Positions 3,301 to 31,615 of a stretch of 35,458 bases of DNA are shown here, in pieces. Location: positions 1 to 35,458 of the forward strand of contig JAHBMJ010001001.1 in NCBI GenBank assembly GCA_018398765.1, given 5' to 3'. Each line of letters opens with the position of its first letter. The stretch's first letter is position 1. The notes under the pieces were generated by a model. That model saw only the letters and a program-made list of their open reading frames with translations, did no database searches and was not told where the DNA came from. Both the position numbers and the translations under genes were made by a program. This DNA comes from Chromera velia (taxonomy: Eukaryota > Sar > Chromeraceae).

Positions 3301-4684
3301 CGAGCGAACCGATGCAAATGAAACGGTCAAAAGAGAAGTCAGTTGGAAAGAAGGAGGAAGACAGGCAGGCAGCTTACACGTCTCTGCCCTGCCGGCCCCC
3401 CTGCCTCCACGATAACACGAGCAGCGACTTCCTCGAGTTCCCTGTCTTTGTCCTTGTCTTCCTCTTTTTCCTGGTGTTCTGGATCTTCCGTGGGCGCGGG
3501 TTGCAACTGTACTTCCCCCGTCTCTTTCTGCTGCTGCTGCTCCTCCTCCTCATCCGTTTTCCCCTCACTTCCCTCACTGCCCCCATGCAGCTCCAAGGGG
3601 AAGGGGGTTCGGCCCCCCTCCTCCGGTCTGGCATCTACCGTCTCCCCGATCTGCCTCCCCTGGTGCATGAGAGGCGAGGTGGGGGGGTCCTCCCTGGCCG
3701 TTTTGGGGCTCTCTTCTTGGGGCTCTTGCTGCCTCTCCGTCTCCGCCTCGCTGCCCTGCTCAAACTGCGAAGGCGGGCCCGTCTCCAGAGCCTCGGCCCG
3801 CAGTGCCAGCTGCAGCGGGCATCAGAAAGAGAAAGGGGGGGGGGGAGGTGAGAGAAAAGAACCTGAAAGGGAGACGAGCAACTTTTTGGATAGGAGACGG
3901 ACAGCATAAAAGGAGACTGGAGAAGCGATGGGGGGAACAGAGTCGACAGAAGAAGGTACTTGAATGCTGTCTTAGGCTCTTCCTGTTCAGTCACGCTCTG
4001 CATCTGTGCGGATGTGAAAGTGTTTATGCCCGTTGGATCATTTTGGGTGTGGAGGGTTGAGAATTTTGAGCCGTCTCCTTTTCGTTCTTCTTCGATGAGA
4101 GGCAGACTGAGCAGATCTTGCTGGTTTTACGGCAAACGTGGAAAGCACATGAAAGCGATGTTGCCCATGGTAAATGAGGGAAGTCAGCAAGACCAGCTGA
4201 TGGTCGTTCATGTAAGCACACACAGTTGCCTCACCTCTGCAGGTGTCTTCACCCCTTCTCCTCTTTCTGCTTTTGCTGCCACTGCAACAGGAGCAGGAGG
4301 AACGTAGATGGATCTCACGCTTGAATGGACGTTTCCCCAACCTGCGACAACCTCCAGGGCCTGGCCCTGCGTAACTGCAACAAATCTGTTCCCTGAGATT
4401 GGTTCCCATCGTTCTCTCTCCCTTCGACGAGGGGAGGAGGACGAGGGAGTCTTCTTGATGATGAACTTGAACTCTAGAATGAACTTGAAAGACTCGCCCT
4501 CAAAGTTCAGCACAACAGGCTCGGACACCCACAGAGGCCAGAGAGGAAAGTCCTCTGAAGAAGTCTGGAGAGGAACCGCACGGTCGGGATCCCAGGAGCC
4601 CAGAGCGTTGCAGCCCCCGACCACAAAGACGCTCTCTCCGTCTAGAGTCTCGGGGCATCGGCACAGAAAGCGCACGGCCGACAT
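338..4684 (-). CDS. CBM20 starch-binding protein with Glu-rich linker and one membrane helix (multi-exon, probably 3'-partial)
   Basis: Start ATG at 4684. Exons that keep phase 0 throughout are 4684-4235, 3809-3378, 3100-2996, 1869-1252 and 730-662, with donors GTGAGG, GTAAGC, GTGGGG, GTAAGT and GTGAGT. A weaker exon lies near 406-338. Exon 1 (150 residues) is a CBM20 domain: VRFLCRC start, VVGGCNALGSWDP, FPLWPLW, a KFII strand and WEPISGNRF, which includes the aromatic residues that bind glucan in this family. A basic, serine-rich 14-residue loop is inserted before WEP. Exon 2 (144 residues) is a Glu/Gln/Pro-rich, probably disordered linker. Exon 3 encodes one hydrophobic helix (WISAVCFWLFFSLGVWFF). 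Exons 4 and 5 (YRLWYDTLQC, SLAVNPFPVFLSDPQIEWYL, DFIVTLIDIEGW) are not recognised. There is no signal peptide, so the CBM20 should face the cytosol. An N inside poly-C at 1467 makes the local frame of exon 4 uncertain. Catalytic function is unknown; additional exons may exist between 2995 and 1869. Confidence 0.7.
449..471. repeat. (ACTG)n microsatellite
   Basis: About six ACTG units. On the sense strand of the CBM20 gene the array reads (CAGT)n, the same tetranucleotide that expands at intron starts in the PP2C gene. Confidence 0.85.
1095..1178. repeat. local imperfect tandem repeat (GACGAGGCCAACAAA units)
   Basis: GACGAGGCCAACAAA occurs twice, separated by AGAAGAAAGACA-type purine sequence, inside an intron of the CBM20 gene. 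The intron is CT-rich on the sense strand. Confidence 0.6.
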
Positions 4685-5913
4685 GAGGACACCTGACCGT
4701 ACAAGACTGTCAGGCTTCTACGCTACACCGAATTACAGACGTCGCATGTCTTCACATCTCGAACCAGTCTCTGAGTAAGTTGGTCCATCCGTCCGATCCG
4801 GATGTCAGCTTCGGTATATCCATGTCAGATTCCATGATCTTCTGACAGCTGAAGATAGCTGAGTGATATCGGACAATATCGGACACCGTCGGGCTGACCC
4901 ACGCGCAAATGTCATGCATTTCACCTATAGCTGTTCTCCACATCGCGCGGGGAGGGCGGCGCGAAAAAAGGGCCGCTGGTCGAAAAAAGGGCCGCTTTGC
5001 CTCAGTGCGCCGGACCTTTTTTGAAGCAATTAACTTAAAACGATCCACAGTATGACTACACCCTCCTCCCTTCTTTTCCTTCTTGCTGCCAGAGCAGTAC
5101 TGGTGGTAAAAGTCATACCAATCTGTTCCCTTAGGACCAGACAGCTACGGACAGCTTGTGTTTGTATCGGGGTGAAGTCTTATTGCACTATATTGTACTG
5201 TTGGCCTGTTTGCCACTTATTGCACTGTTGGTATTCTATACTGCTCCAACCCTATTCATCAGAAGGCAACCAGAATTTAAAGGGATCTATAAAGGACGTA
5301 GTCCTATGTAGAGACAGGACGTAAGTCCCGTGTAGCGTCAGAGTCTAACACTGAATGTTGTGTCTAATACTGTTTGCAGGTTGATTTTCTTAAAGGGAAT
5401 TGATTTCCGAAAAGTGTAGAATTGTCGATCTGATCTTACCAGAAGTGTTACTTAGATTTCTGATCTTGTTTTGCTGATTGAAAGACTTTGTGTTGCTCAT
5501 TGAGTCTTTCAGAAAGTCTTTTGCGCATGCGATAGTCCATCTTTGGTGTGATGCAGGCCGTGGTTGGTTGGCTCGGCCTTGGCTCGACATGATTTTATCT
5601 TGGCATAGCTCGAAAGACCTCTGAGTCGAAAGACTAGGTCTTGAAGGACTTTAGCTCAGCCTTGCTGGAAGACTTTAGCTTGGCTTTGCTCACTGCATGA
5701 ATTCCATACTAGCTCATACTAGAGCTTCATATGGCTTGATCGGGTATTTCTATATTGCTCGGTCAGATATTATTCTAAGTCTAGACCTTTTAGTACTTAG
5801 GGTCTAGGTATTTTTCTTTTTCAAAGTTTGGGGTTCCACTACTATATAACATTGGTCTTTATTAGTCTTATTGCACTGCATGTTGCTACTTTTCACGGCG
5901 AACTGTTAGCGTG
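4685..5913. other. gene-poor region upstream of the CBM20 gene
   Basis: No convincing exon on either strand. The first 350 bases should contain the CBM20 promoter. A direct repeat CGAAAAAAGGGCCGCT occurs twice in tandem near 4960-4997. Around 5640-5700 there is a short internal duplication (GACTTTAGCTCAGCC / GACTTTAGCTTGGCT) suggesting decayed mobile DNA. The base composition becomes AT-richer towards 5900. Confidence 0.5.
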
Positions 5914-6159: not shown

Positions 6160-6430
6160 AATGCCGCGGACCTCCGGGACTTTACCACGTTGTGTCATCA
6201 TTCACAGCGCGGCGCACACGCACAAAATACGTAGGTGTGAGAGAAATTTGAAAATGTTAAACTTTAAATAAAAAAGCTGTAGTAAAAAAGTCGCCAACCG
6301 CTTCATCATTTCTCTTATTTCTCTCTATTCTTTTACAACTATCTCTTTCTTTTGTATACTTCTGTATCTCTTTCATTCTCTCTCTTTTTTGATTAATCTC
6401 TTTAACGCTTTCCACAATAAACAGTTGAGG
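6160..6430. other. non-coding, pyrimidine-rich spacer
   Basis: No gene seen. The second half is a long T/C-rich run (TTTCTCTTATTTCTCTC and similar) directly before the first copy of the large direct repeat. Confidence 0.5.
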
Positions 6431-6872
6431 TGTAAGCTATGTGTGTACTGGTCTAAGTAATCATGAGGCTAGCAGTGTGGTAGGCTAAACAGAGATATTC
6501 TTGATCAGCCGTTTATAGAGGGAGTTCCATCTTAGAGTTCTAACAACAACCACTCATGCCAATCATCTAGCTTCTACTGCCTTCCAGGCTCTCTCTTACT
6601 TGGCTACAGAACGCATGCCTCACTGTAAGTATCGTTTAGTGCACAGACGCATGCGCTCATCGATCCCGCGCCCTACTTTGTGCAAGTAGCCCGTCGAGCG
6701 ACTAAGTACCATAACAGCCTCGTCATGGTAGTGGCGCCACGTACAAGCCCTCCATCTGCCCGCTCGCCGAGGCCGACGTCCACGCTCAGTTCATACTGTC
6801 TTTCTTTCTCTCTTACTATCCATATTCCAGCCCTACATCTGCCCGTTTGCTGAGTGGGTAGGGTGAGTAAAC
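6431..6872. repeat. large direct repeat, copy 1
   Basis: Begins TGTAAGCTATGTGTGTACTG and ends GTGAGTAAAC. It matches 8881-9185 closely over the first 200 bases, with about 11 transitions and 2 transversions by eye. This copy has extra sequence in its second half, including a near-duplication of CATCTGCCCG around 6753 and 6836. It could be one LTR of a small non-autonomous retroelement or simply a dispersed repeat. I see no primer-binding site after it. Confidence 0.65.
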
Positions 6873-8880
6873 TCAATTCATTCAATCTCAATTCCTTCCA
6901 TCAGATTCCTTCATTCAAAATAAAGTGATCACACAGCAGCAATAAAATGATAATGACGCTGAGCTCCAGGCTTGGATCGCTAAACAAGAAAATGCAGTCA
7001 ACCTCTAAAATGGACGTATGTGGCTCAGTACACCCTCTTACGCACACTGGCTCGAGACCCTGAACACTCAATTTCCAGTCGACTATTCAGGGTACACGCT
7101 GGCCTCCAGTCCCGAAGGACTGCAATGCCTCCCATCTCTAGCCCACAACATACTCAGTGTGTTGCACACGTTACCCTCTCTACACCTCTTCAGTTTATCT
7201 TCTCACCTCAGGCCCCCTGCTGTGCTAAGGCCGAAATCGCACGTAGCCTGCTTATGGATGTGCAGCTCCATGCTCTTTCATACACTCCTGACAGTCGGAA
7301 GCAAAAATTATAGTCCTCTGCGAGCGGTGCCATAGCAATGATCTGCATAGACGCCAGAGGATTCAAACACTGCGACGCGCAGTCGGAACAAGACGGGTAT
7401 GACCACACACCGGCAAATGTGGCCGCAAACAGCCAGGTTTTCTCTTTCTTCTTTCGACACAAAGTCAATGGTTTGATGCAAAGTCAACATACTGCTCAGA
7501 ACTCCTAATCGCAAAGATGTGCTTTCAGAGTTCACAGCATACGGGGCATGGTTCAACGTGCAGTGGACACTCTCACTCTTCTGTTTGCTGTGACAGTATC
7601 ATGCATGTACACTCTTCTACTCTCGCTCCTAGTCTCTCTTATTTTTCCTTCTTCCCCCCCTTTTCTTTTTTCACCCTTCCCTCCTGAACTCCAAACAGAC
7701 AGCAGGGAAGTAAAGACAACAGATAACATGAGACAGAGACAGCAAGAGAAGCAACATACCAACATTTGCCCTACAGACATCTCGGCCGAAGTCATCAGCC
7801 CCTAGGCAGCCATTCCCAGGCACTAAAAACATACAGCCTCTCCTTTCCCTGCCCCACTATCATTCCCTCATGCAGTCACTTCTCTTCTTCTCTTCATTAC
7901 CTCTTCTTTTTTGTGTTTGTATCTTTTCTTTTCGGCAATCTCCTCTCATCACAATAAACCCTCAGTCTCCCCACCTCCAACTTCCTTTCCCTCCTCTCCT
8001 TCTCTTTTCTCTTTTTCCTTCCTAACTGCCTTGGCCCCCATGGCCTATTCCTATCACGAAGACACAATACAGTCAGGATGTACAGAGAGATACAGTCAGA
8101 CATACTAGCTACCAGACCCATACCGACTTCAACACACTCTCTCTCACTTCATCACCTTCCTTCCTTCCTCCCCCCAAAACAAATTTCTCAACCTTCAACC
8201 AACAACCAAAAGAAAACAATCCAGGAGTTCACTGACTTGGAGATGTGCAGCAGCTACGGTGCCCCCATGGCACTACTGAGCGTTTGGAAACACGGCATAC
8301 CTGGTTGCGAGCGAAGACAAAGACCATACACCTCCAGTCACCACAACCAAACCTCCACTCTATAAGATGCTCTTCCTCCTTCCATCCCAAACCTCTCACA
8401 CAGTAAAACAGCCAAGAGCATCTTCTGCATCACCTGGGTGCGTTCCATATAGGCTTGGACACCTCGTGCTTCATTGCAGTACAATCAGCAAAGATGACAG
8501 TCAGTCAGTCAGTCAGTTCAGTCAATTAGACTGAATGGTCTCCCTCCTCAAGCTTATCCTTCTGGACCCTTATCTCTGGCGGGCCAGCAACCTTGAGTTC
8601 CAAGACCTCCCTCAAGATAAAGAGAACAGAAAAAAACACTGCGCTCCATTATATCTGGAAGAGAGTCTCAAATCCGCCACAAATTTTGATTCGAGAACTG
8701 TTACAAACAACACAAAAGAGACGAAATTTCTTTTCTTTCAACAAGTTTTTCCACTGACGAGCTGACACTGCACTCTTGTCAGTACAGACCTTGCGTACAG
8801 TGATGAGAAATCTCTGTCCAGTCTGACTGTTCATCACCACATCTGCCTCCTTGTGTTGCCAAACGCTCTGCTAACCAAAC
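6873..8880. other. sequence between the two direct repeats, no recognised gene
   Basis: About 2 kb without a recognisable exon. The plus strand from 7560 to 8200 is strongly pyrimidine-rich. In this window that is how sense-strand introns look, so an unrecognised plus-strand gene cannot be excluded. A short CAGT run lies near 8501-8516. If the flanking repeats are LTRs, this would be the interior of a non-coding retroelement. Confidence 0.4.
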
Positions 8881-9185
8881 TGTAAGCTGTTTGTGTACTG
8901 GTCTAAATAATCATGAGGCTAGCAGTGTGGTAGGCTAAACAGAGATATTCTTGATCAGCTATTCATAGAGGGAGTTCTATCTTAGATTTCTAACAACAAC
9001 CACTCATGCCAATCATCCAGCTTCTACTGCCTTCCAGGCTCTTTCTTGCTTGGCTACAGAACGCATGCCTCACTATAAGTATCGTTTAGTGCACTTCGTA
9101 TAAGTAGCCCGTCGAGGGACTAAGTACCATGACAGCTTTGTGGCAGCGCCACGTACAGGCCCTACATTAGGTATGATGAGTAAAC
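8881..9185. repeat. large direct repeat, copy 2
   Basis: Second copy of the 6431-6872 repeat. It starts TGTAAGCTGTTTGTGTACTG and ends GATGAGTAAAC. It lacks about 30 bases after TTTAGTGCAC and about 100 bases near its end relative to copy 1. Confidence 0.65.
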
Positions 9186-9646
9186 GGCCATGAGCTTTAG
9201 ACGATGATTGAGGGTTTTATTATGCATGTCATGTCCCCATATATAAGGGACGGATCTAGCCTAGTTTGTCAGAAGGTCTACAAACTTCAGACAAGGTAAT
9301 AGAATTAAATAGAATGCATGAGGTGATCTTTGACTATCTTTCACATATTTTAAGATTATTTATGATTATTTAAAATGTTTCTTTATCTTTCTTCTAGGTC
9401 TTTCTTACTCCATCTATTTCTTAATTATCTTTGATCTACTTTGATCTTATTTCTGTATTCTTTTTCTTTCCATACTTTCCTGTTTGCCATTCCATATAGT
9501 ACCGTGACACCAACCATCCCACCCTAACCTAAGAGGCTAACTTTAAAATCAATGTGTAGTCTTGTGCATGTACATCTAGATCTGCATTGTATTCACCCAG
9601 GTATACGCACAGTAGTGTACTATCCAGCATTTATCGCAGACATTCT
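9186..9646. other. AT-rich spacer downstream of the RUS gene
   Basis: No gene seen. It contains T-rich stretches and should hold the 3' UTR and polyadenylation region of the minus-strand FTR-RUS gene ending at 9647. Confidence 0.45.
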
Positions 9647-11929
9647 CTAGCTATTTGAATTCTCCCCAGCCGTCCAGTCTACTCTTGGCAATTTTCCGTA
9701 CATAAAATGATCAGTCTTCCACCCCATCCGTTTGACCTCTTCGTGAAAGGCGTCGAATGTTTGCGAAGAAATCGCACTTCCTGCTGCCAAAAGACCATAA
9801 ACCGGCAGCTCTACGCAGCCATCATCTGCTGAATGATTCTCATCCCCCCCCGCTCCTTCGCTGCCTGCCTTCATCCTGCGCGCCCGTGCATCCTCTTCCT
9901 GCTGCCACAAATACCTATCCAGCAGTGTGCGGATACACGCGACTGTGTAAATTGCACGGAGAGTGTCCTCGCCCGTTGCTTCGCTCTTCAACCAGACTGA
10001 AAATCCCTCCAATCTTCTCCCCCGTCTCGAACGAAATCGCAGTCTCCCCCCCCACCCTTCTTCCCCCTCTTCCTCCTGAGGCAACGGGAAACACTCCAGG
10101 TCTTCCTCGTCAGGGTCCCTCAACGCCCCCCCACCCGCTGCAGGTCGGGAGGGCGCTGCAGAGACTCGTGAAGGATCCATGTGAACCACAAAGACGTCAT
10201 CTCCCCAAAGTTCCAAGCAAGACCGGACAGCATCAGGGGAACATCCGCACGTCCGGGGTGATCCAAACAGCTCTGCTCCTGCCACCCCTGGCAGCACTAC
10301 ACGTTCTCTCTTGGCCAGTTCGGCAGGAGACGGCACCGTTTTGTCAAAGGTGAAAGAGGCAGGGACGCACATGAGAAGCTGCTCTCTTTGTCTCTTCCCC
10401 TCTTTGTCTGTCACCCTCTCCATCTCCAACGAAATCTGACGGACAACCGCCTCTGCAGCTGGGAGCGCACAGAGGTGTGACCTCTCGTTATTCAACCACC
10501 TGAACACCACGCTACGAATTTCTTTGTAGATACAAGAGATGTCAACACACGACAGACACATGTATGCTAGTGCAATGGAACGAGGGGCCGTTCCGATCAA
10601 CCTACACAGGGCGATGCCCGACAGCATTCCCATCAGGTCCACCACTGCGACCTGGGCCTCCCCCTTGGCTGTGATGTCTCCAATATTCCTCCCCCCTCCT
10701 GCGGCGGCAAAGGACGCGTACACAGCATTGCGGGTTGCTGAGGAGGTGAGAACCGAGATCTGCTTGAAGCTGTTAGCCGCAGTTGCAAACACAAGAAAGC
10801 TCTTTGGAAATGCATATGTGAGCACCTCCAACCCGTTACCGATCGCAAATAGAACCGACGACCGAAATCGCCACTTTTTTGCATCTCCGTCAAACGCCCG
10901 ACCCATCCTGGACGCCCACAAGATCCTTCCCCCCTTCCCAAACGCGTCCTTGAACACCCACGACAACGCTGCTGCGGCTCCAAGATTTCGGCTCTTGATG
11001 CCCAGTGCAAGCAAGAGGGCCTGGGTACCAAACACATTCACAGTAGCAGACAAGAATCGTTGGACCATTCTCCAAAAAGTGTACGAATAGTAGTCTGGCG
11101 TTACGTTATCTGGAAGCAGAGCATGCTGCACAGTCGTGACTACACGCTCCATGCCGGGCAGCCTCGAGAGACTGGCAGCAGCACGACTCAATACTGCAGC
11201 CACTCCCTCCATTCGCACCGCGCTGCCATCTTTCCCCTCGATCCCCTCCACTCCCCCCTCCCCCCCTGACTCTCCGTTCCCGTTCCCGTTTGTGAATACA
11301 GGAAGGTACCTTCCCCTCCTCTCACTCCACTCCAACCTCCCCCTCCGAGGCCCAATGACTTCCTCCAACACAGGCACCGACAGGAGGGATGAGTTTCGAT
11401 GGGGGGAGGCAAGGGAGGTGCCTGCTGAGGCACTCCTGCGATGGCTCCTCCCCCCCTCAGCCTCCTTCCCTCCATTCCCAAACAGAGTAAAACAAAGTCT
11501 CTGCAAAGGAGGGACGGGCACGGAAGGGTCCCATGCAGAGTGGAAGGGTGGACGTTCCTCCGATCGTGCGGTGCCGTTCCTCCTCGCTGCCCTTGAGGAC
11601 ACGTCCAGAAACCCGCCCCCCCCCGTGCGCGTGTGGGAGGCACACGAACCTCTCTCTTCGTGACCATCGCAGCGGCCTGCGGAGACAGGGATAAGAGAGA
11701 GCAAAACAAAGGGGGGTGCACTCAACACAACACAAGGTGGGGCGGAACGCAGATCGGAGAGAGACTCGACCACATAAGCGAGAGTTGTATATGAGTTTTG
11801 TGTGTGTGTGTGTGTGGTGTGGTGTGGTGTAGTGTGTGTGTGTATGTGTGCGTACATCTGTGTGTGCACGTATGTGTGCATGTATATGTGCATGTATGTG
11901 TGCGTGTGTGTGTGCGCGTGCGTGCGTGC

Positions 11930-11965
<36 letters not shown>

Positions 11966-12551
11966 CAGAGAGAGAAGAGAGAGAGAGGAATGGGGTGGGT
12001 GGGCGCGAGGGAAGGGCAGACCATCACTAACATTTATCCGGGGCTGCGGCAATTTTCTTGATTTCCGAAGCCTCAAAGTGTGCCTTGAAGGGCAGAGGCG
12101 TGCTGAACTCCACCACAATGGGTCTGTCTGGAGAAAGGATGCCTGCAGGATCTTGACGGATTCTTACAACTGTCCCCTCAAGCCCCTCTGGGTTGAATCC
12201 CGTGGCCTTCCACTGCTTTTTGTGCCAGAACCTCAGATCACCACTCTCAACCTTCACCACATCCCCACAACAGAAATTGCCGCTTTCCGGATCACACCGA
12301 GCCTCCTCCTCCTCACCTACACCGACTGCCTTCCCTCCCAGAGCGCTACCGCCAGAAGAGTACCAACGCACACCCCCACCACTGCCGCCACTGCGAACAA
12401 AACGCGAACGCCGCTCCCAACCATGAAATACGAGCCAGGGACGGCCAACAAGGAAACCCCCACAGTCACAGAACAATGCAGAGAGGAACAACAAGTACAA
12501 CGCTACATACACACCCGAGAGTCGGGAAGGAGGAGACGGCAAAGACCTCAT
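9647..12551 (-). CDS. FTR variable-chain-like domain fused to RUS/DUF647 protein (two exons)
   Basis: Exon 1 (12551-12032) and exon 2 (11676-9647) join across a 355-bp intron with donor GTTAGT and acceptor CCGCAG. The sum is 2550 bases, 849 residues plus TAG. Residues 13-32 are a hydrophobic signal segment; 33-75 are Arg/Ser/Gly-rich, like a transit peptide. Residues 94-166 resemble the variable (alpha) chain of ferredoxin-thioredoxin reductase (CCGDVVKV, GFNPEGLEGTVV, RPIVVEF, FKAHFEASEI). About 190 low-complexity residues follow. Residues about 358-570 are a RUS (ROOT UV-B SENSITIVE, DUF647) core: LPDNVTPDYYSYTFWRMVQ, GNGLEVLTYAFPKSF, NIGDITAKGEAQ, CVDISCIYKEIR. The C terminus (GWKTDHFMYGKLPRVDW) is also family-like. 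In the known FTR the variable chain supports the catalytic subunit; RUS proteins act in plastid or membrane-linked vitamin B6/auxin-related processes in plants. Plastid targeting is inferred. Two separate genes remain possible. Confidence 0.75.
11677..12031 (-). other. intron with (CA)n/(TG)n microsatellite in the FTR-RUS gene
   Basis: The donor GTTAGT follows GATAAAT and the acceptor is a pyrimidine-rich stretch ending CCGCAG. Plus-strand 11800-11963 is a TG/GTGC microsatellite. An in-frame TAG begins three bases into the intron, so an unspliced transcript would end the protein after the FTR domain. Confidence 0.65.
11800..11963. repeat. compound (TG)n / (GTGC)n microsatellite
   Basis: Plus strand alternates TG with GTGC, ATGTGTGC and a final pure TG run of about 13 units. 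It lies wholly within the intron of the FTR-RUS gene. Confidence 0.9.
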
Positions 12552-13206
12552 CTTGCCTGTACAAGGAACAGAGAAAAACTGAATGTCCGAGCACTAAATC
12601 TGGAGCTTTCAAACAAAAGAGGTGATTCACCATTATACGTTGTGTAAGGCAATCACAATTTGACCGTCGTGACCGGCAAGCAAAGAAAGTCTGAAGAGGC
12701 GATGAAGAAGCCATTGCAGGATTCCATCACGTCGGGCGGGGCCAATTGGCGGCCTTGCGGGGACCGCCCATTGTGCTCCATTGCAGTGACGCGCGCGTCA
12801 ACAAAAGGGAGACTGAGGTCGGGGAATGTCGTGCGTGCGTCGGCAAAGTGTCTGACCGCTGAAAGAAGTCGTCCAGCTCTTTGATTTGACAACAGTCTCT
12901 TCCTCTGTTGCACCTCTTCCATCCTTCGGCTTATCGATCAGTCCGGTTCGCCTTTCGACCCCCCCTGCTCATTGATCTCCGTGTGCGGTCGGTCGATGGC
13001 TCCGTGTGTTTTCCTGTACGAATATTCTGTGACTGGATCCAGTTGGTGACAGTCTCAAGTTGACAGTCTGCCAGAAAGACGGAAGGAACGGCTGTTCCCT
13101 GGCCCTGTCCTCTGCCAGTGTGGTGCCTCACCTCCCACTAGACCTCCTGTACTTCATCTGATCTTCAGTACGTATTCGAATCGAGTTACTGGCCAATCCG
13201 ACCAGA
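12552..13206. promoter_or_regulatory. bidirectional promoter region between FTR-RUS (-) and PP2C (+)
   Basis: The start codons of two divergent genes are 655 bases apart. Near the middle, 12734-12752 reads GGGCGGGGCCAATTGGCGG: a GC box overlapping a CCAAT box on both strands (CCAATTGG). A second GC-box-like ACCGCCCATTG lies at 12763-12773. No TATA box is evident. Co-regulation of the two genes is an inference from layout only. Confidence 0.45.
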
Positions 13207-21121: not shown

Positions 21122-21418
21122 CAGTACGTCCAGGCCTACTGGCAAAAGAAGGACCCCCAAGCAGCGTGCGATTTCATGGTCAGTCGGTCAGTCAGTCAGT
21201 CGGTCAGTCAGTCGCTCATTCATTCATTCAGTCGGTCAGCCAGTCAGTCGGTCAGTCAGTTAGTCGCTCAGTCAGTCAGTCAGTCAGTCAGTCAGTCGGT
21301 CAGCCGGTCGGTCGGTCGGTCAGTCAGTCAGTCAGACGGTCAGCCAGCCAGTCAGTCAGTCAGTCAGTCAGTCAGTCGCTCATTCATTCATTCAGTCAGT
21401 CAGACGGTCAGTCAGTCA

Positions 21419-21461
<43 letters not shown>

Positions 21462-22687
21462 AGTCAGTCAGTGGCTCATTCATTCATTCAGTCAGTCAGA
21501 CGGTCAGTCAGTCAGTCAGTCAGTCAGTCAGTCGCTCATTCATTCATTCAGTCAGTCAGTCAGACGGTCAGTCAGTCAGTCAGTCAGTCAGACGGTCAGT
21601 CAGTCAGTCAGTCAGTCAGTCAGTGAGTCAGTGAGTCAGTGAGTCAGTGAGTGAGTTAGCTAGTCAGTCAGTCAGTCGCTCATTCATTCAGTCAGTCAGT
21701 CAGTCAGTCAGTCAGTCAGTCGCTCATTCATTCAGTCAGTCAGTCAGACGGTCAGTCAGTCGCTCATTCATTCATTCATTCAGTCAGTCAGACGGTCAGT
21801 CAGTCAGTCAGTCAGTCAGTCAGTCAGTCAGTCAACAAGGTAGGAGGTGAGAGGGGTAAAGGAAAGAGGAACTGGCTTGCCTTCGACTCATTCATTGAGC
21901 TAACATAAATCACGCTTGCGCGTGCACGCTTGTAAATGTGAGCGTTTTGTGTGTGGGGGGGAGATTTTTTGTCCGTATGAAGGCATGTCGATGTTTTGTT
22001 CTTTCTCCCTCTCATCTGCTTGCTAGGCTATTGTTGTCGCTCCGCCCTCCTCCACGTGCGTGCGTATCTATTTCTGCCTGTTCACCTCATGATCCCTGCT
22101 TGTTTGCTTGTTTGTATACCTGCTTAATTGTGGGAGTGTTCATGCAGGTGTCAGAAGCAAATCGAAGATGGCGGAAGGAAGAGGAGGTCAGTCAGTGGAC
22201 AGTCAGGCACGTGGGGTGTGGGCTCAAGAAGGGAAGGGTGCCGAGTCTCACTGTGTGCGTTTGCGTGAGTTTTAGCTGATGATCGACAGACTGTTCTTTG
22301 TGTCGAATTTGCTCCTCGACTTGCTCTATTCTCTTTTTGAGTTTCTGTCAACGTCGGGCAATGTCTGCGGCTGTCTTTTGCTTGGAAAAGGGGCCCTTAC
22401 GCAAGCGGCAAGGAAAAGGAGTGAATTTGTTTTCGAGAAAAAGAAAAAAGTGCAGAGCGTCTTCGTGCAAGTCTGTCTGGGAACATGCAGGAGAAAAAAG
22501 ATAATCGCGCAGTCTCCCTTATCGTCTCCTTGATGGTGTGAAGACCCATTGGCTGCTTCCATTCCATTCACTGCCTCTTGTCTGCAAATTGTCTGTTGTC
22601 TGGTTGCACAAACAAACAAACAAATGCTGCATGCAGGTGATTGATGACACGACGGTGATTGTCGTGTTCCTCAACGTCCCTGGGTGA
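13207..22687 (+). CDS. PP2C (PPM) family Ser/Thr protein phosphatase, 21 exons
   Basis: Exons: 13207-13285, 13404-13425, 13903-14005, 14271-14315, 14832-14873, 15234-15266, 15627-15692, 15971-16010, 16405-16454, 16696-16791, 17237-17294, 17555-17626, 17926-17953, 18457-18508, 19012-19114, 19559-19602, 20028-20090, 20635-20688, 21125-21178, 22148-22186, 22637-22687. They total 1194 bases (397 residues plus TGA) and every junction keeps frame. The first roughly 95 residues are Pro/Ser/Arg-rich. The catalytic domain shows, in order, VNQDSHF, FFCVMDGHG, SGSTTIGV, ANVGDSRA, LSDDHKPDRPDEK, GPPRVWLK, LAMARSMGDA, VIAEPEI, LASDGVWEFISNEE, EANRRW and VIDDTTVIVVFLN. The Asp residues that bind the two catalytic Mg/Mn ions are present, so the enzyme should be active: metal-dependent dephosphorylation of phospho-Ser/Thr. 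No membrane helix or targeting leader is seen. The first two or three exons are less certain than the rest. Confidence 0.93.
14320..14522. repeat. (GTCT)n arrays with two copies of an intronic purine-rich repeat
   Basis: In intron 4 the donor GTCTGT runs into (GTCT)n, then GTGTTCATGAAGAAAAGG, GAGAAGAAGAAGAAACATAT, another (GTCT)n, a second shorter copy (GAAAAGGAGGGAGAAGAAG, AACATATAG) at about 14470-14500, and (GTCT)n again. The same block recurs in intron 17 (20130-20205) and partly in intron 8 (16345-16376). Confidence 0.85.
15715..15742. repeat. (GTGG)n microsatellite at the start of intron 7
   Basis: Exon 7 is followed by GTGAGTGAGTTCGTGAGT and then (GTGG)n, so the boundary GTGAGT is repeated and drifts into a tetranucleotide array within 25 bases of the donor. 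Confidence 0.85.
16345..16376 (+). repeat. intron 8 partial copy of the shared intronic repeat
   Basis: GGAGAAAACGAAGGAGAAGA followed by AACACATAGTCTCTC is a diverged match to the blocks at 14388-14437, 14470-14500 and 20160-20200. Confidence 0.55.
16792..16893. repeat. (GTCA)n then (ATTC)n array at the start of intron 10
   Basis: The donor GTAAGTCAGTCAGTCAG runs straight into (CAGT)n, then CCGCTCATTCATTCATTC and a longer ATTC run, then CT repeats. The CAGT-GCTCATTC combination is the same unit that builds the large array in intron 19. Confidence 0.9.
17205..17232. repeat. (GCCT)n/(GTGC)n array against the exon 11 acceptor
   Basis: CTGCCTGCGTGCGTGCGTGC leads directly to GTGTGTGCAG, the 3' splice site of intron 10. 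Confidence 0.85.
17295..17364. repeat. (GTCA)n / (GGCA)n array at the start of intron 11
   Basis: The array begins at the donor itself (GTCAGTCAATCAGTCAGTCA), passes through about seven CAGG units and returns to CAGT. Confidence 0.9.
17954..17970. repeat. (GTCA)n at the start of intron 13
   Basis: The donor is the first of four GTCA units directly after exon 13 (AAATG|GTCAGTCAGTCAGTC). Confidence 0.85.
18410..18456. repeat. (CTGC)n array against the exon 14 acceptor
   Basis: About ten TGCC units end in CCCACAG, the 3' splice site of intron 13. Confidence 0.9.
18566..18605. repeat. (TTCC)n microsatellite in intron 14
   Basis: Roughly eight TTCC units on the plus (sense) strand. A similar run occurs at 22700-22728 in the 3' flank. 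Confidence 0.85.
19451..19483 (+). repeat. duplicate of the exon 16 3' splice site and first exon bases
   Basis: Identical in 32 of 33 bases to 19540-19572, which contains (ATGC)n, the acceptor TGCAG and the first 14 bases of exon 16 (GACTTGCGATGGCC). After the upstream copy the reading frame meets TGA in about ten codons. It is therefore a decoy or alternative acceptor within intron 15. Confidence 0.85.
20091..20264. repeat. (GTCT)n arrays, shared intronic repeat and (TTTC)n in intron 17
   Basis: Donor GTCTGT begins a (GTCT)n array. Then come TTTGTTGCTTTCTTTCTTTT, TCTATTGTGTTCACGAAG, AAAAGAAGGGAGAAGAAG and AACATATT, a second (GTCT)n array and (TTTC)n. About 85 bases match intron 4 at 14350-14440. 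Confidence 0.88.
21040..21120. repeat. (TG)n microsatellite before exon 19
   Basis: A GT-rich tract with CGTG interruptions precedes the acceptor GTGCGTGCAG of intron 18. Confidence 0.9.
21179..21836. repeat. giant (GTCA)n higher-order array at the start of intron 19
   Basis: About 658 bases of GTCA units begin exactly at the exon 19 donor. Seven GCTCATTCATTC blocks punctuate the array (near 21211, 21376, 21471, 21532, 21677, 21720, 21760), usually followed by CAGTCAGACGGTCAG. The plus strand has almost no stop codon in any frame. The longest serine-rich reading frames of the region (VSQS repeats) are translations of this array, not genes. Confidence 0.95.
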
Positions 22688-24229: not shown

Positions 24230-24817
24230 TATAATTCATTCATACATCTATCGACCAAGAAAGTTGGTAACTTAACATAAAAATTCAAAAATTGTAACGT
24301 TTAAATTACTAACTTGAGCTGTCTAGAAAAATCTAGTTACTTTTTTAAAAAAGTAACTCCTAGAGCGCGCACTACATAAACAAAAATAAAAGATGAAAAA
24401 AGCTTTTTTTTATGTTTTTTTTTTTTAATCATGATACTCAATAGGTAACTCACTAGGCAAACAACTGTTGCTCAAGTGTTGTCAAAGTGTTGCACGGGGT
24501 GTTGCATTAAAAACTGTATACTTTTTAGTTGATAAATAAAAAAAAATAAAAGACCGGAAACTTTTTTTTTTTCTTTTTTCTTTTTTCTTTAAATTCTTTT
24601 TAATTTTTTATTTATGGAGTGCAAAGCCTACAGTAACTCTTAAATGCACTGATGATGATGAGATGACTTAACCCGCCAGCCATCGTGTCCCAATGGCAAA
24701 GGGCAGTCTGTGAGCATTCATCTCATATTATAAGCTAGGAGCACGCTAGCGAATGCTCACCTAAAGTGGCCGAACTTTAGGACTACTAGCTAGCAGAACA
24801 CTGCTCTCCAGGATCGA
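24230..24817. other. AT-rich non-coding block with palindrome and hairpins
   Basis: A marked drop in GC, with long A and T runs (24395-24430, 24535-24615). A perfect 24-base palindrome lies at 24335-24358. An inverted repeat GTGAGCATTC/GAATGCTCAC lies at 24710-24719 and 24751-24760. Directly after it is a CTAAAGT/ACTTTAG hairpin at 24761-24780. No gene seen. Such blocks often derive from DNA transposons. Confidence 0.6.
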
Positions 24818-25530
24818 TTAGTCCGGTCCTAGGTATGCAGTAATCAGGGTACTGGCCTTTTGGACGTCCCTCTGAAGAAGAAGCGAAAAGTACCACCTTA
24901 CCCACTCCTCGGCCTGCCCCATGCCCCTACCCTCTCGGGCTTCCTGTCTCTCTCCATGCTCACACACTTCTTCTATTGACATACACTCCAGTCGCCTATA
25001 CCAGAGATCACTCAGTCTCCCCCGCGGCCCCTCCGTTTGAACACAAGTTATCAGACGGTGAATCGGATCGTCAATCAATTTCTCCCAACTTTTCTCTTCA
25101 CAGGCTTTACAAATTGATTCAACCCTCCCCCCATGGTTTGCCCCCCCTCCAACAATGGCGCACAACAAAGGGCGGAAAACTGCCCCGGGGGAAGATAAGA
25201 ACTGCTTGGGGAAAGGTTCCGCCAAGGCAGACCATGAGCCCCTCCTCCCCTCCACCAAGCTTCCGAGAACCAATTTTGCAAAGCGTTGGCTGGTACTATT
25301 CTCCTTCTGATATTTGGTCAGGCAAGCAGACAGAGGAAAAGACACGCTCCCATGCATTCCTTGTCTCCTCTGCTTCCTCTCTCTCCTTTCTGTGATGGAG
25401 ACCGGGTTTACCCAGTCCCCCATCCATTCGTTCACTTCTCTGTTTCTTGCTCCCCTTTTTAGCTTGCTATCTGATATTCTGAAATCGACCTCATCTGGTT
25501 CACTTTCCAGGAGGGCAGGACTGACGGGGC
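24818..25530 (-). pseudogene. 3' part of an unrecognised gene, cut off by the retrotransposon
   Basis: An open frame enters from the LTR and ends with TAA at 24818. The protein-like part runs from LESEPDEVDFRISDSKLKRG to STLITAYLGPD and includes WEKLIDDPIHRLITCVQ, LSDLWYRRLECMSIEEVCEH and WVRWYFSLLLQRDVQ. A 120-base intron is plausible inside it (donor TGG|GTAAAC near 25403, acceptor ATATCAG near 25290, both phase 0). I do not recognise the family. Its upstream part is missing, because the copia 5' LTR begins at 25531 in antisense orientation to this gene. A match on the far side of the element was not found by eye, so the gene is probably broken or its remaining exons are beyond the window. 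Confidence 0.45.
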
Positions 25531-25864
25531 TTGAATATGCTTGAATGTGAGTTTGTGTGATTGAAGGAAACTGTGAGTGCAATCAGTCTGTCAGTGGTTA
25601 AAAGTGATAGGATGGCAGTTCAATCAGTCAGACACACACTGGTGTGCGGGCGTGGGTCGTGCGGTTTCTCATATTGAAGCAGTGATGTAATCGCTGTCAA
25701 TGCACTGCCGTCTCGTGTAAACTTCTTGACTGTTGCTAGAAGATGGAGTCAAGAAGACTGAAAAACTTTATTGTCTGGTAGGTTCAAACTTTCCTGTTTG
25801 TTCTGTTCTGTTCAAGTCTATATACTTGGCTGTTCTCTAGCTAAGTATATAGTGTATTGTCACA
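25531..25864 (+). repeat. 5' LTR of the copia element
   Basis: 334 bases from TTGAATATGCTTGAATGTGA to GTATTGTCACA. It aligns without any gap to 31282-31615. The U3/R part contains CTAAGTATATAG, a possible TATA signal. Confidence 0.92.
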
Positions 25865-25867
25865 ATT

Positions 25868-25882
25868 TGGTGTTCCCAGGCA
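25868..25882 (+). promoter_or_regulatory. primer-binding site of the copia element
   Basis: TGGTGTTCCCAGGCA begins three bases after the 5' LTR. TGG at this place pairs with the CCA end of a tRNA. The tRNA species cannot be named from this sequence. Confidence 0.6.
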
Positions 25883-25920
25883 GCGTATTTGTTTGTCGTT
25901 TGCTTGGTTCTCTCCTGTGA

Positions 25921-27135
25921 ATGCGGAATTCATTTGCGCCTCTTGGTTCCGATTCTCCTGTGTCTTCTGCTCATTCTTCTCCTGTTTTTGCTGCTGCATC
26001 TACTACCATGCCTGGCAACGATTTAGCGCCAAGAGCTGCTTCCGCAGCTGCCATCAAGCTGCCAGATTTGTCGTAGGTTCCCGAGTTGAAGACGTCTCAC
26101 GACTGGAAGTCTCAGGAGGAGAAAGTCCGTGTTGCTTTCGCTAAGGACTTTAAGACCTGGCGAAGATCCTTCGAGTTCACCACCAAGTTTATCATGACCT
26201 TTGTGGAGAAAGAGGAGCACGTTCTCGCCCTCTGGGTCCTTGCCCTCCTTTGTGCGTTCAAAGCCTTTCCTTCCCTTCAAGAGGAAGTTCATCTCTCTGT
26301 TGGTGAGGGAAAGGAGAAGGCAGATTTGCTGGAGGCCATCTCAGTCGAGGTCACCAGACGCAAGTCCCTTGACAAAGATACCTGGCAGAACATCTTTCTG
26401 AAGCTGGAGAGAGCGCAGTACGGGAGAGAGGACATCGTCAAGGCCATGAAGCGGTTGAAAGATACCATTTGCGAGTGTGGCGCCGTAGGTTACAAGCCCG
26501 ATGCCGACCTCAAGCGTCGTGCATTGAAGAGTATGCTCACCAAGTCCGAGTGGAACGATTCCACTGAGAAGGCCTCTCTGAAGACCGGGAACAAGGTCTC
26601 AAAGCTTAGCTACGATGAGATCCTTGTGCACGTTGATACAAAGGTTGACGCCACTGAGGATTACGAGATTACTCGACCTGTTGATGGTTGTTCGTCTTCT
26701 TCCTCCCCCAAGTGCAACTACGAGTTTGGCGCTGCAGCTGATCGCTCGTAGCGTCCGAAGGGTCGAGGCAAGGGTCGTCGGGGGAAGAAGAACAATCGGA
26801 AGGAGAAGTCTTTCCAAGGTGAAGGGGGTGAGGAGTCCCAGTCTGGAGCAGCGACGTCGGGTGCCATGAGTTCTTCCCAGACTTGGCCGTGCCCTAACTG
26901 CAGTCACATGAAGCACCTCAACCCCAAAAAGGGGTGCCCGGCTGCCAACGTTCGCTGCAGTTTCGAGGGCTGCGGTATGGTTGGGCACTACATGAAGTGT
27001 TGCCCTAAGATTCTGAACCCCAAGAGGAAGCAGCAGCAGGCCAAGGCTGCAGGTGAGTACATTCTCGTGCAGAAGGGAACCATGTTCCAGCTTAGAGAGG
27101 ATCGGGAGCGATCCTTCTCTGATGAGGATTTTTGA
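25921..27135 (+). pseudogene. copia gag remnant
   Basis: Starts at ATG 25921 and runs to TGA 27133, with in-frame TAG at 26074 and 26749. The middle (WKSQEEKVRVAFAKDFKTW, KFIMTFVEKEEHVLALWVLA) resembles a capsid-type helical region. A basic stretch (RPKGRGKGRRGKKNNRKEK) follows. Near the end are CPNC and a CX4CX4H-Cys motif (CSFEGCGMVGHYMKCC), a variant zinc knuckle for RNA packaging. Confidence 0.8.
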
Positions 27136-30100
27136 AAGGCCCCTGGGCCGCCCCCCCCCAGTCCCAGTTCAGCCGCTGGGGAGGGGCAGAGGTCTCATCA
27201 AAGGCTGGAAGAGAGCGTTTTATAGGGGTGACCTTGCGTAACGTGCAGCAGAGTGGGTGGTATAAAGAGCCAGAGTGGGAGGATGTTTGTGTTTCTGTCC
27301 CAAAAACCCCTGTCGAGTGTTTTGTTGGCGTGGTGGGGGATGATGGGGAGTGCATTGCTGACTCCAGTTGCTCGTTAGGTCTTTTTACCCCTACGTTCGA
27401 GAAGTTTGTTATCTCTTCTGAAGACCAGTCAGTTGATTTTCATCTCGCTTCTGATGCTGCCCCCCTTTCTCTGAGAGGGGTCAAGACAGTCCACCTTCCG
27501 TTTGAGGATAAAAGGGGGAATGTACGCATCATTCCGGAGGAAGGGTATATTGATAGGTTGATTGGTCGTGCGCTGTTGCCATACGCAAAGAAGAAGTTGC
27601 ACTTGAAGGGGGAAGATTCGTCTGATGATGATTCCGACTCTAGTTAGGTGTGTTTGCAGAACATTCATGGGAGATGGTTCCGAGCTCTCAATGATCAGAC
27701 GGGCAGCGTTCCTGTACTCCGTCTTACTCAAAATAAAGAGGCCATTGCGGCTTTTTGTGTTTGTCCCCCTGTTTCTACGTTTTTCCTGACAGAGTCTACT
27801 CTCTCTGGACAGTCTGATCTGTCAGAAGAGAACAAAGCGCATCTGCTCCACGTTCTGTACTCCCGTTTAGGGCATGCCACCAGGCAGCGCCTGGAGGCTA
27901 CCTTGAAGGAGAAGGGGGTAGGTGTACCATATTCTGTTGGGGAGTGCCGAAAGGTACGAGACACGTGCAAAGCGTGTCGGGAAGTTAACTTCTGATGCAG
28001 AAAGTTGAAGCATCAGGGTTCTGCTGCAGAGACATGAAAGCGTGTCTCCAAGCCATGCGAGGAGCCTCCAGTTGACAGAGGCGAAGAGAAGGAGCGAGAG
28101 TCCAAGGGTCCGGAAGGAAGCTTCAATGCTGACATCTACCACGATCTGAAGGACATGAAGAGGAAAGGCATCGGGGGGGTACGCTATGTGTCGGTGATCA
28201 TTGATCTCCACACACAGCGTAAGTCCTTCTGGTGTTGTCGCTCCAAAGATCGCGCGCTGGCCCATCTAGTTGCTTGGATGCGCAGGTGGGAGAGGGCTGG
28301 GAAAGGGAAGCCAAAGATTGTCCATTTAGATAACGGACGCGAGTTTATTTGCGAGCAGTATCGTTCTTTTTATCGAAGAGAAGGCATTCACACTGAGTTT
28401 GGTCCACCTCGCACTCCTGAAGTGCAGGCGATAGTTGAAAAAGTGAATGATGAGTTCTTTTCTCTTTTGAACAAACTGCTTTTACAACGTTCTCTCCCTT
28501 TTTATGTCTGGCCTGTTTTTATTTCTGGTGTCGCAAATGCGTTGAATGAGGTCGTTCATGCTTCGACTGGCCGTTCACCGAACTGTTCTTTGTTTAGTAA
28601 GAGGTCGGGTGTCCCTTCTGTTGCTGCGGGGGATGTTGTTTGCTTGGCAAACCCTTCCTGCTGGCAGAATTTCATTGCTGGTGGGCCCTTTAAAAAGAGC
28701 GAGCATGCTCTGTTCGGGGGGGTTATTAGCCCACAGTCTCTCTCTGTCTTGCTTCGGTGGGGGGGACAGTGGAGAGCTCTGTGTATGCATCTGATGCATA
28801 TTCAGTTGGAGCGACGTAGTTGCGGAGAGGGAAAGTGATTCCGTTATTGGAAGAGGTTTGGTTTAGGTTGGTTGGGGGGAGGAGGACAATCAATCAGATG
28901 CGGAAGCTGAAATCGGGGGTGATCGATCCTTCCGATAACGGCGTTGCAGAGCCAAGCGATCGCCTTCCCCCATCATCTAGTGGCACCCCTCCGAAGTGTT
29001 CTGGCTTATTAGTCGGGGGGTGCTCTGTTTTCTGGACAGGTTGTGAGGGAAGGGGCAAAACAGACGTATGGCATTACTACTGCTCGGTTGAGAGAGGGGG
29101 ATGATGGTGTGTTCCATCCTATTGAGCTTGAAAAGGTGAAACAGAAAGATATTGTGGAAAGATTTGAGATCTCTCCTGATGGTCGTCTTCCCCAGTTTGT
29201 TTTCGACAGACTAGCTAAGCAGGCCCCTCCATCTCCTGATTCCTCAGACCCTCCTGTCCCTCCTGTCCCTGACACTGAGATCCCTGTAGACGTCGATGTC
29301 ATTGCTGAGCAAGCCGCAGAGGAAGCCGCAACTGCCGAGTTTGTTAGGTGGTCTGAGATGTCAAAGAGTCAGAGGGAGAGATATATGAGGGAGAAAAGGA
29401 AGAAAAGGAGAGAGTTGAAAGAAACCCGCATTGCAAAAGTGTTTGACAGCTATTTAGAGATCGCATATACAGTGATGAAGGCTGAGAAGGCGCGAAAGCT
29501 GTCGCAAAGAGAGAATGATACGAAAGGTCACATCATTGCCAGTGAAGAAGAAGTAGCTCAGGGCTTGTTCAAAGAGTCCGATTGGAAAGAGCTTGCCAGG
29601 TGGTGTTTGTGCTCTGTGTTTGATCTCTCCTCTTAGATGTTGCAGACTGAGCAAGGAGTGAAAGCCGTCTCTCTCCGTTGGGTTCGAACGTGGAAGCTGA
29701 AAAACGGAAAGCGAGTTGCTAAGTCCCGTCTTGTGGCAAAGGAGTTTCAGGACTCGCGTAATTGGGGAATGTTGGAGACTTACTCCGGTACAGCAGACCC
29801 TAACCTCGCCAGAGTTGCATTTCTGTGGGCGGTCTCTTGCGGACTGCAGGCCGTTAAGATGGATATCTCGACGGCATTTCTCCAGGCCCCCATAAAGGAT
29901 GCTGTATGGCTGCGTCTCCCTTCTAACCTCCCTGTGGAGGTCTGTCCAGGACTCCGTGCGGGTGTGTTCGTTCGCATCCAAAAGGCTGTGTACGGCCTGA
30001 AGGACACTCTAAAGGTATATACCTCCTACTTCAAGAAGAAGGTGCATTCATTGGGGTGGACTGAGATCTCGGAATCTATTCTAGTCAGAAGAAATCGGAA

Positions 30101-31058
30101 GGGAGAGCCTGTTGCGTTGCTTGTTATGCATGTCGACGATCTTTTTCTGTTTTCTCCTTCTGTCAATGAAGATGTCAAGGGAATTCAGGGGTTGTTCGAT
30201 ATTGATAAGCCAGAAAGAATGGATAATGGAGAATTGTATTTGTACGTTGGCATGTCCATTCGTATGCGTCCAGGTGAGATGTTACTCGATCAGTCAAGTT
30301 ACATTCAAGGGATGTCTGAGCGTGTGAGTGAGAAAACAAGAAAGCCGTTGACAGAGAAGGACCTTTTGCTGCCTGAGGAGAAGGATATAGATCTCTCTCT
30401 GCAGGCTGAACAGCAGAAGAATGTTGGTTGTTTGGGATGGGCGGTTAAAACCCAACCCTCTCTGTCTTTTCTCTTTTCTCACCTGTCTCGGTCGAACTCT
30501 CATCCGTCCCGTTCATCTGTTCTTGCGACTGAGAAGGCTCTCTAGCATGCCAGAGAGACTGCTCGTCCGCTGCGTCTCTCTTCTGTCTCTTCTGTCCCCT
30601 GTCTGTTGGTTTGGGGGGATGCGAGTTATGAGTTAGCAAAGAAAGAAGGGAGGTTGGGAATCAAGATGCAGTTGGTGGATGAAAGTGAGATCGTGAATCT
30701 TGACAAGATAAGCGAGGACAACACCGTGTTTTGGCTCAGCAAGAAGCTGGCAAGAAAGCTGCTGGGGTCAACGATTTCAGCTGAGTTGCTTGCCATACAT
30801 GATGTAGTCAAGTCCTCTTGGTCGATCGCTCACTTAGTTAGAAAGTTGTGGAGAAAGATGCCTCTTGTTGTTGTTGTGACTGACTCGCAGCCGTTGATAT
30901 TTCAGTTGAGTAGCAAGCAGTGTAAGAGCGAGCCTCACATGCAGGGTGAGTTGGAGTATGTGTTGGAGAACCTTGCGGAGTTGGAGGCGAAGGTGAAGTG
31001 GGTTCAGTTAGGTTCTATGCATGCAGACAGACAGACGAAGTTCCTTCGTTGCAGTTAA
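27132..31058 (+). pseudogene. copia pol remnant (protease, integrase, RT, RNase H)
   Basis: Reads in one frame, shifted relative to gag, apart from stops and a disrupted stretch near 28840-29040. Protease: CIADSSCSLG at about 27352 (D-S-S rather than D-S-G). Pre-integrase zinc motif: HLLHVLYSRLGH with later CKAC. Integrase: VSVIIDLHTQ, HLDNGREF, AIVEKVND (DDE triad). An unconserved acidic/basic spacer at 29043-29636. RT: WVRTWKLKNGKRVAKSRLVA, MDISTAFLQAPI, KAVYGLKD, HVDDLFLF (HVDD in place of YVDD). RNase H: VWGDASYE, SAELLAIHDVVK, TDSQPLI, HADRQTK. Stops lie at 27645, 27993, 28035, 28836, 29634 and 30543. They are almost the only damage, so it was disabled by point substitutions. Confidence 0.9.
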
Positions 31059-31281
31059 GTGTTTCCGAGTTTCTTCTCTTTCAGTGTGTCTTCTCTACTC
31101 GCGTTTACAGTTCAGACAGGGGGTGATCTGTAAGAGAAAGTGCATGCGGGGCGGCGTGTCGAGGCACGCTGGGCGGGCCACATAGACCTTTAGTGGGCCG
31201 AGGCCTGCATGCGTGTATTAGTGTGTCATTCTTTGTTCAGACTCGAATTGAGTGCATATGCCAGGGATAGTTGAGTCGGGC

Positions 31282-31615
31282 TTAAATATGCTTGAATGTG
31301 AGCTCATGTGATTGAAGGAAACTGTGAGTGCGATCAGTCTGTCAGTGGTTGAAAGTGATAGGATGGCAGTTCAATCAGTCAGACACATACTGGTATGCGG
31401 ACGTGGGTCGTGCGGTTTCTCATGTTGAAGTAGTGATGTAATCGCTGTCAATACACTGCCGTCTCATGTAAACTTCTTGACTGTTGCTAGAAGATGGAGT
31501 CAAGAAGACTGAAGAACTTTGCTATCTGATAGGTTCAGACTTTCCTGTTTATTCTGTTTTGTTCAAATCTATGTACTTGGCCGTTCTCTAGCTAAGTATA
31601 TAGCATACCATCACA
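31282..31615 (+). repeat. 3' LTR of the copia element
   Basis: 334 bases from TTAAATATGCTTGAATGTGA to CATACCATCACA. Relative to the 5' LTR all differences are transitions and there is no insertion or deletion. Confidence 0.92.

Follow-up and report, generated by a model that had tools for sequence, protein, structure and literature searches.

How did the two long terminal repeats (LTRs) of a retrotransposon come to differ at 29 positions without a single transversion? The question is raised by a Ty1/copia-type element in a contig of Chromera velia (assembly GCA_018398765.1, contig JAHBMJ010001001.1), from which we analysed a stretch of 35,458 nucleotides, hereafter the window. An earlier reading of the sequence (the original prediction) had attributed the pattern to a C-deaminating defence acting on repeats, i.e. 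similar to repeat-induced point mutation (RIP) in fungi. Here we show that nearly all changes in this family after insertion are C to T on either strand, and that cytosines followed by a purine (CpG, CpA) are changed two to three times more often than those followed by a pyrimidine. This spectrum probably reflects the decay of methylated cytosines in transposable elements (TEs).

The LTR pair of the window

The ungapped alignment of positions 25531-25864 with 31282-31615 (offset 5751) contained 29 differences in 334 bp, all of them C/T or G/A, in agreement with the earlier count by hand of about 29 transitions and no indels. The C or G state was kept 15 times in the left and 14 times in the right copy, and the base following the C, read on the C strand, was A in 17, T in 6, C in 3 and G in 3 cases; both the even split and the context counts were thus reproduced. 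The 334 bp had been taken for the whole LTR and represent its 3′ part: the match of other copies begins 153 bp further upstream, giving a length of about 487 bp, and three of the six copies inspected (L009, L012 and L021) start with TGTGAGAG and carry visible 5-bp target duplications at their boundaries. The left LTR is without its first part and adjoins another repeat, family 3, which ends at around 25526; the missing stretch of about 153 bp was not found elsewhere in the window. The junction at 25526-25531 represents either a rearranged insertion or an assembly join. Judged by its sequence hallmarks, i.e. LTRs, an integrase ahead of an RVT_2-type reverse transcriptase and a short target duplication, the element is a Ty1/copia-type retrotransposon.

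The predicted CpA bias is not significant in this pair alone, where 17/29 changes compare with a background of 43 % from the LTRs' own composition (p 0.37) and the rates at CpA and CpT are 13/112 and 6/94, respectively (p 0.23); it holds family-wide, as described below. At the transversion fraction of tandem arrays in the same genome (158/337), 0/29 would have a chance of 1e-8. At the fraction of the family's own LTR pairs (20/194), however, the chance is 0.04, and the window pair is therefore an extreme draw from a family-wide pattern. Doubling the internal C>T load of the window copy gives 8.8 %, which matches the 8.7 % by which its LTRs diverge.

Mutation spectrum of the copia family

The genome (177.8 Mb, 4040 contigs) was searched with the LTR, yielding at least 40 matches (best 40 of 46 candidates scored), of which the window accounts for two. 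From the matches listed, 28 loci were taken, one per other contig, which together with the window provided 41 LTR rows and included 12 elements in which two LTR pieces were present, the short pairs being those of L025 (161 bp) and L023 (116 bp). Over 3502 locally aligned bases, the 12 pairs showed 174 transitions as opposed to 20 transversions, a count in which the window pair contributes 24 in 322. Other copies therefore do not show the normal transversion rates that would speak against the original prediction. When polarised by other copies, 150 of the 154 resolved transitions were C>T or G>A, with 20 more unresolved. Changes at CpA exceeded those at CpT (82/1191 vs 28/1063, p 2e-6) and the CpG rate was higher still (43/402), while the preference for CHG typical of plants was not found in copia (CHG 27/904, CHH 102/1745 and CG 43/402 in the LTR pairs).

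The internal sequence was compared among the 17 copies for which 1500 or more of its bases were available, using columns covered by at least six copies with a majority of at least 60 % and assuming the commonest base to be the unmutated one. Of 3229 changes polarised in this way, 2815 were C>T/G>A, 170 were T>C/A>G and 244 were transversions. The C>T rate per site was 0.120 at CpG, 0.095 at CpA, 0.041 at CpT and 0.036 at CpC, compared with 0.005 for A:T>G:C transitions and 0.002 and 0.004 for transversions at A/T and C/G sites, respectively. The combined CpG and CpA rate was uniform along the element (0.082-0.125 per 350-bp bin) and alike on both strands (0.0755 and 0.0698). A preceding pyrimidine about doubled the C>T rate within CpC and CpT in these internal copies, which is reminiscent of dipyrimidine damage, while CpA and CpG were struck at equal rates after a purine and after a pyrimidine.

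Other dispersed repeats and controls

The same bias was found in further repeats. In family 2 (window and 19 loci, with L051 and L052 being overlapping cuts of one place), 1955/3007 changes were C>T/G>A, at rates of 0.197 for CpG, 0.131 for CpA, 0.083 for CpT and 0.075 for CpC; four loci (L054, L057, L059 and L060) reached only 38-40 % C>T/G>A, which we attribute to differences shared within a subfamily. In the window, the LTR-like ends of this family differ by 18 transitions, 4 transversions and 38 gap positions. For family 3 (window and 10 of 39 long matches), 356/424 changes were C>T/G>A (CpG 0.115, CpA 0.095, CpT 0.059, CpC 0.043). Four additional repeat pairs, picked from 36 repeat rows in flanks of or insertions in the fetched loci, showed 199 transitions and 19 transversions (CpG 0.092, CpA 0.092, CpT 0.034, CpC 0.032; CpG and CpA vs CpC and CpT, p 2e-12), although one of them, fam4, adjoins the family 2 subfamily and may belong to it. 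Exceptions were two inverted-repeat rows of 225-240 bp inside L022, with transition:transversion ratios of 6:4 and 2:3, and several rows with L050 at about 4:1.

Fourteen tandem arrays, none of them within copia, family 2 or family 3, served as a control; their period was 12 or more and neighbouring units differed by less than 35 %. They contained 179 transitions and 158 transversions, i.e. far from the 174:20 of the LTR pairs (p 2e-19), with CpA (49/439) no higher than CpC (55/403). Four LHC gene copies (95-99 % pairwise identity, 551-690 bp) had 6 C>T/G>A, 7 T>C/A>G and 8 transversions, plus 6 ties; the resulting 6/21 differs from the copia value of 2815/3229 (p 1e-9), this control being one gene family of genes under selection. 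Transition:transversion ratios of pairs among the four copies ranged from 24:10 to 8:0; in other, older LHC pairs they were about 1 or lower. L074 sits at the end of a contig; both others resemble it more closely than they resemble each other, and its assembly may be mixed.

With respect to composition, the repeat spectrum would lead to an equilibrium of about 8 % GC compared with 51 % GC in non-repeat window DNA, which is a stronger control than dinucleotide composition. The observed/expected ratio of CpG was 0.70 in non-repeat window DNA, 0.50-0.66 in window repeats and 0.68-0.78 in gene loci L037-L040. A second haplotype that could serve as a control for single-nucleotide polymorphisms was not found for the one gene region searched, 9600-12640, whose matches elsewhere were short repeat matches (best 40 of 863 candidates scored). 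Most indirect tests speak against the same pattern in single-copy DNA, the composition test being weak.

Independence of the changes

Among 10 full copies, the four-gamete fraction at shared C>T sites was 0.511, identical to that after shuffling (0.511), and shared sites within 30 bp were not linked (r2 0.114 vs 0.111). Chimeric assembly was rejected as the cause of unlinked shared sites, since linkage is absent even within 30 bp. Shared transversions were rare, with only 8/146 minor states found in two or more of the 10 copies. Taken together, the lack of linkage and the scarcity of shared transversions indicate a radiation of these copies from a single source, followed by independent hits that often fell on identical cytosines.

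The 767 private C>T changes were not clustered and same-strand neighbours were not significantly above between-copy controls. A processive deaminase was rejected, with both strand-run and clustering tests negative (same-strand fraction within 20 bp 0.58 vs 0.52, p 0.10). In the internal sequence, the ratio of C>T changes to transversions was homogeneous, both for private changes in 17 copies (p 0.57) and for all changes in 10 copies (p 0.37), while the C>T load per copy was overdispersed (variance/mean 9).

Candidate machinery

A PF00145 profile search of the contigs, conducted exon by exon, returned eight rows on five contigs, none of which was among the copia contigs fetched. For C3982 and C1092, the best structure matches were DNMT2/tRNA C38 methyltransferases. 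C675 has a C-terminal exon above the Pfam cut-off with weak DNMT2 likeness (E 0.035) as well as PPCQ and ENV stretches upstream, and is probably of DNMT2 type. The DNMT2 class is known mainly for tRNA and has a CFT motif. One genome thus holds two clear and one probable DNMT2-type genes (C3982, C1092 and C675; loci L037, L038, L039, L040 and L086). C788 was considered as a fourth methyltransferase; it is a candidate below the cut-off (E 0.019 as protein) and was left unclassified due to an assembly gap beyond the motif I exon. The match on C1422 was also below the cut-off. Neither a RID/DIM-2-like gene nor DNMT1 was recognised among the PF00145 matches, in a search by exons that can miss genes. 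An SRA domain, i.e. a reader of 5-methylcytosine, was found at C2797. For APOBEC_N, the only deaminase family covered by the search, there was no match over the cut-off (best E 0.88).

Probable methylation decay and its alternatives

The spectrum is probably due to a targeted methylation of TE cytosines, chiefly at CpG and CpA and less so at CpY, with the methylated bases lost through ordinary deamination, and we favour this explanation over homology-sensing RIP. In its favour are the excess of CpG and CpA changes over those at CpC and CpT in copia and the other repeats, the even, unclustered and unlinked hits on both strands, the homogeneous ratio of C>T to transversions in the internal sequence, the tandem and LHC controls, the gap between about 8 % and 51 % GC, the SRA domain and the milder parallel in plant TEs described below. 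Full copies of the Ty1/copia-type family would all go back to a single source sequence, from which they spread before decaying where they had inserted. The host would keep the elements cytosine-methylated at CpG and CpA and to a lesser degree at CpC and CpT, as a means of transposon silencing, and 5-methylcytosine would turn into thymine by deamination over time. Since CpA has no cytosine opposite, its mark would need to be re-established after every replication, which would be the task of a putative targeted de novo methyltransferase.

Several observations weigh against this explanation. The transition:transversion ratio is heterogeneous among the 12 LTR pairs (permutation p 0.018), which speaks against a simple clock, and the correlation between C>T and transversion loads is only weak (Spearman 0.59, p 0.07). 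CpG is raised in the tandem arrays (25/95), one LHC pair shows 8 transitions and no transversion, and in the LHC pair L083 vs L085 C>T changes amount to 13/62 at CpG and 1/55 at CpA; given the arrays and the latter pair, CpG decay may extend beyond TEs to genes. In addition, the contrast in TpA composition is weak, as the observed/expected ratio is 0.39 for the non-repeat DNA of the window compared with 0.51-0.70 for its three repeats, with the gene loci L037-L040 (0.40-0.66) overlapping the latter. Finally, the methyltransferases recognised are either DNMT2-type or unclassifiable.

The original prediction of a RIP-like defence held in part, i.e. for the C-to-T change after insertion on both strands, in several repeat families, with CpA among the targets and with most genic and tandem controls free of it. 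True RIP, in which DNA duplicates are sensed through their homology and a methyltransferase, with or without a deaminase, hypermutates them from C to T in bursts, nevertheless appears rather unlikely. Fungal RIP acts in the sexual phase, and its enzymes are RID and DIM-2 in Neurospora and Masc1 in Ascobolus. Chromera repeats resemble its products in that both strands are mutated and CpA is one of the favoured contexts, and RIP would also suit the 29:0 of the window pair, the heterogeneous ratios of the LTR pairs and the overdispersed C>T load. In contrast to RIP, however, CpG is struck at least as often as CpA (0.120 vs 0.095), neither clusters nor strand runs are seen, the ratio of C>T to transversions is homogeneous in the internal sequence, and no RID/DIM-2-like gene was recognised in the exon-by-exon search. 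The four LHC duplicates, although of a length and similarity that should invite RIP, were spared (6/21; one family), and this sparing together with the lack of clustering argues against homology-sensing bursts.

A chromatin-linked bias without methylation, in which cytosines of silent DNA are poorly repaired or suffer damage, for instance from ultraviolet light at dipyrimidines, is quite improbable. It would explain the even, scattered and clock-like hits and the roughly doubled rate after a pyrimidine in CpC and CpT, but the equal rates of CpA and CpG after a purine run contrary to what dipyrimidine damage predicts. Very improbable, too, is a C-to-T spectrum of the whole genome in which repeats are not special: the mild depletion of CpG in non-repeat window DNA (0.70 of expected) and the raised CpG of the tandem arrays would fit, but the 179:158 of these arrays with CpA no higher than CpC, the 6/21 of the LHC genes and the 51 % GC observed instead of about 8 % do not. 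Hardly credible is an APOBEC-like or ADAR-like editing of the element at the RNA or cDNA stage, prior to its insertion, which would suit the transitions-only window pair, since both LTRs are copied from one cDNA and earlier edits would be common to both rather than differ between them, both strands are affected, the direction is C>T and not A>G, and no match to APOBEC_N, the one deaminase family searched, exceeded the cut-off.

Comparison with known systems

Symbiodinium is a dinoflagellate and thus an alveolate relative of Chromera. In Symbiodinium, retrotransposons bear methyltransferases with a tested activity at CG, and DNMT2 paralogues are present (PMC5890265); the latter are also found in Chromera, whereas the five PF00145 contigs were not among the copia contigs fetched. 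In the protist Naegleria gruberi, cytosine methylation lies mainly in repeats and outside CG, affects all four dinucleotides alike and is credited to DNMT1 (PMC12344493). Chromera would share with it cytosine methylation in repeats and outside CG, but the putative mark prefers CpG and CpA, and DNMT1 was not recognised. In plant TEs, as described for wheat (PMC2996936) and Welwitschia (PMC8275611), the transition/transversion ratio is raised via deamination of methylated cytosine, with other DNA less affected. Wheat, with 2.8 in TEs compared with 1.9 in introns and untranslated regions (PMC2996936), resembles a milder version of the decay in Chromera, which is distinguished by its CpG and CpA context without CHG preference and by the larger excess (174:20 in LTR pairs vs 2.8 in wheat TEs).

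Other features of the window

Table 1. Repeats and retrotransposon parts located in the window
Feature	Position	Strand	Basis or remark
Repeat family 2, LTR-like ends 6431-6755 and 8881-9167	6430..9170		C>T bias as in copia
Repeat family 3, about 877 bp	24650..25526		39 long matches elsewhere among the matches listed; C>T bias as in copia
Left LTR, truncated to the 3′ 334 bp out of about 487 bp	25531..25864	+	LTR pair alignment, comparison with other copies
Ty1/copia-type element, internal region, broken reading frames	25865..31128	+	
Integrase core domain (rve) frame	28038..28838	+	PF00665, E 1.9e-11
Copia-type reverse transcriptase (RVT_2) frame	29637..30545	+	PF07727, E 5.2e-18
Right LTR, full length, 487 bp	31129..31615	+	Start equivalent in other copies; ends and target duplications there
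Another repeat, also inserted in copia copy L022	31997..33216		Pair with 84 transitions, 14 transversions

Besides these features, the window contains a gene with a UVB_sens_prot domain (RUS-type) at 9647-12163 on the minus strand. A probable piece of a ferredoxin-thioredoxin reductase alpha chain, just under the cut-off, lies at 12027-12593 on the same strand, in another frame and overlapping the upstream end of the UVB_sens_prot gene. A tandem array of a GTCA-like 4-bp unit (around 164 copies) occupies 21179-21834. In the genome, a PsaD exon shows complete identity to chain 9hyu_D across about 150 residues. Outside the window, the copia copy L016 holds an insertion bounded by a 652-bp repeat pair (3230-3871 and 4936-5587; 22 transitions, 1 transversion), which is placed like the LTRs of a nested element.

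Implications

A literature search, with most subscription journals outside its reach, revealed no report of cytosine methylation of Chromera DNA and, among the papers listed, none of RIP outside fungi. Going one step further, we raise tentatively the possibility that this photosynthetic relative of the Apicomplexa might mark its transposons with 5-methylcytosine at CpG and CpA, via DNMT2-clade or unrecognised methyltransferases, as a mutational defence comparable to RIP. If true, cytosine methylation would serve to destroy transposons in an organism outside the fungi. Dating the LTR elements of this genome from their total divergence would probably mislead. In a chromerid, the repeat-linked footprint at CpG and CpA would itself provide evidence, at the level of sequence, of non-CG DNA methylation directed at repeats.

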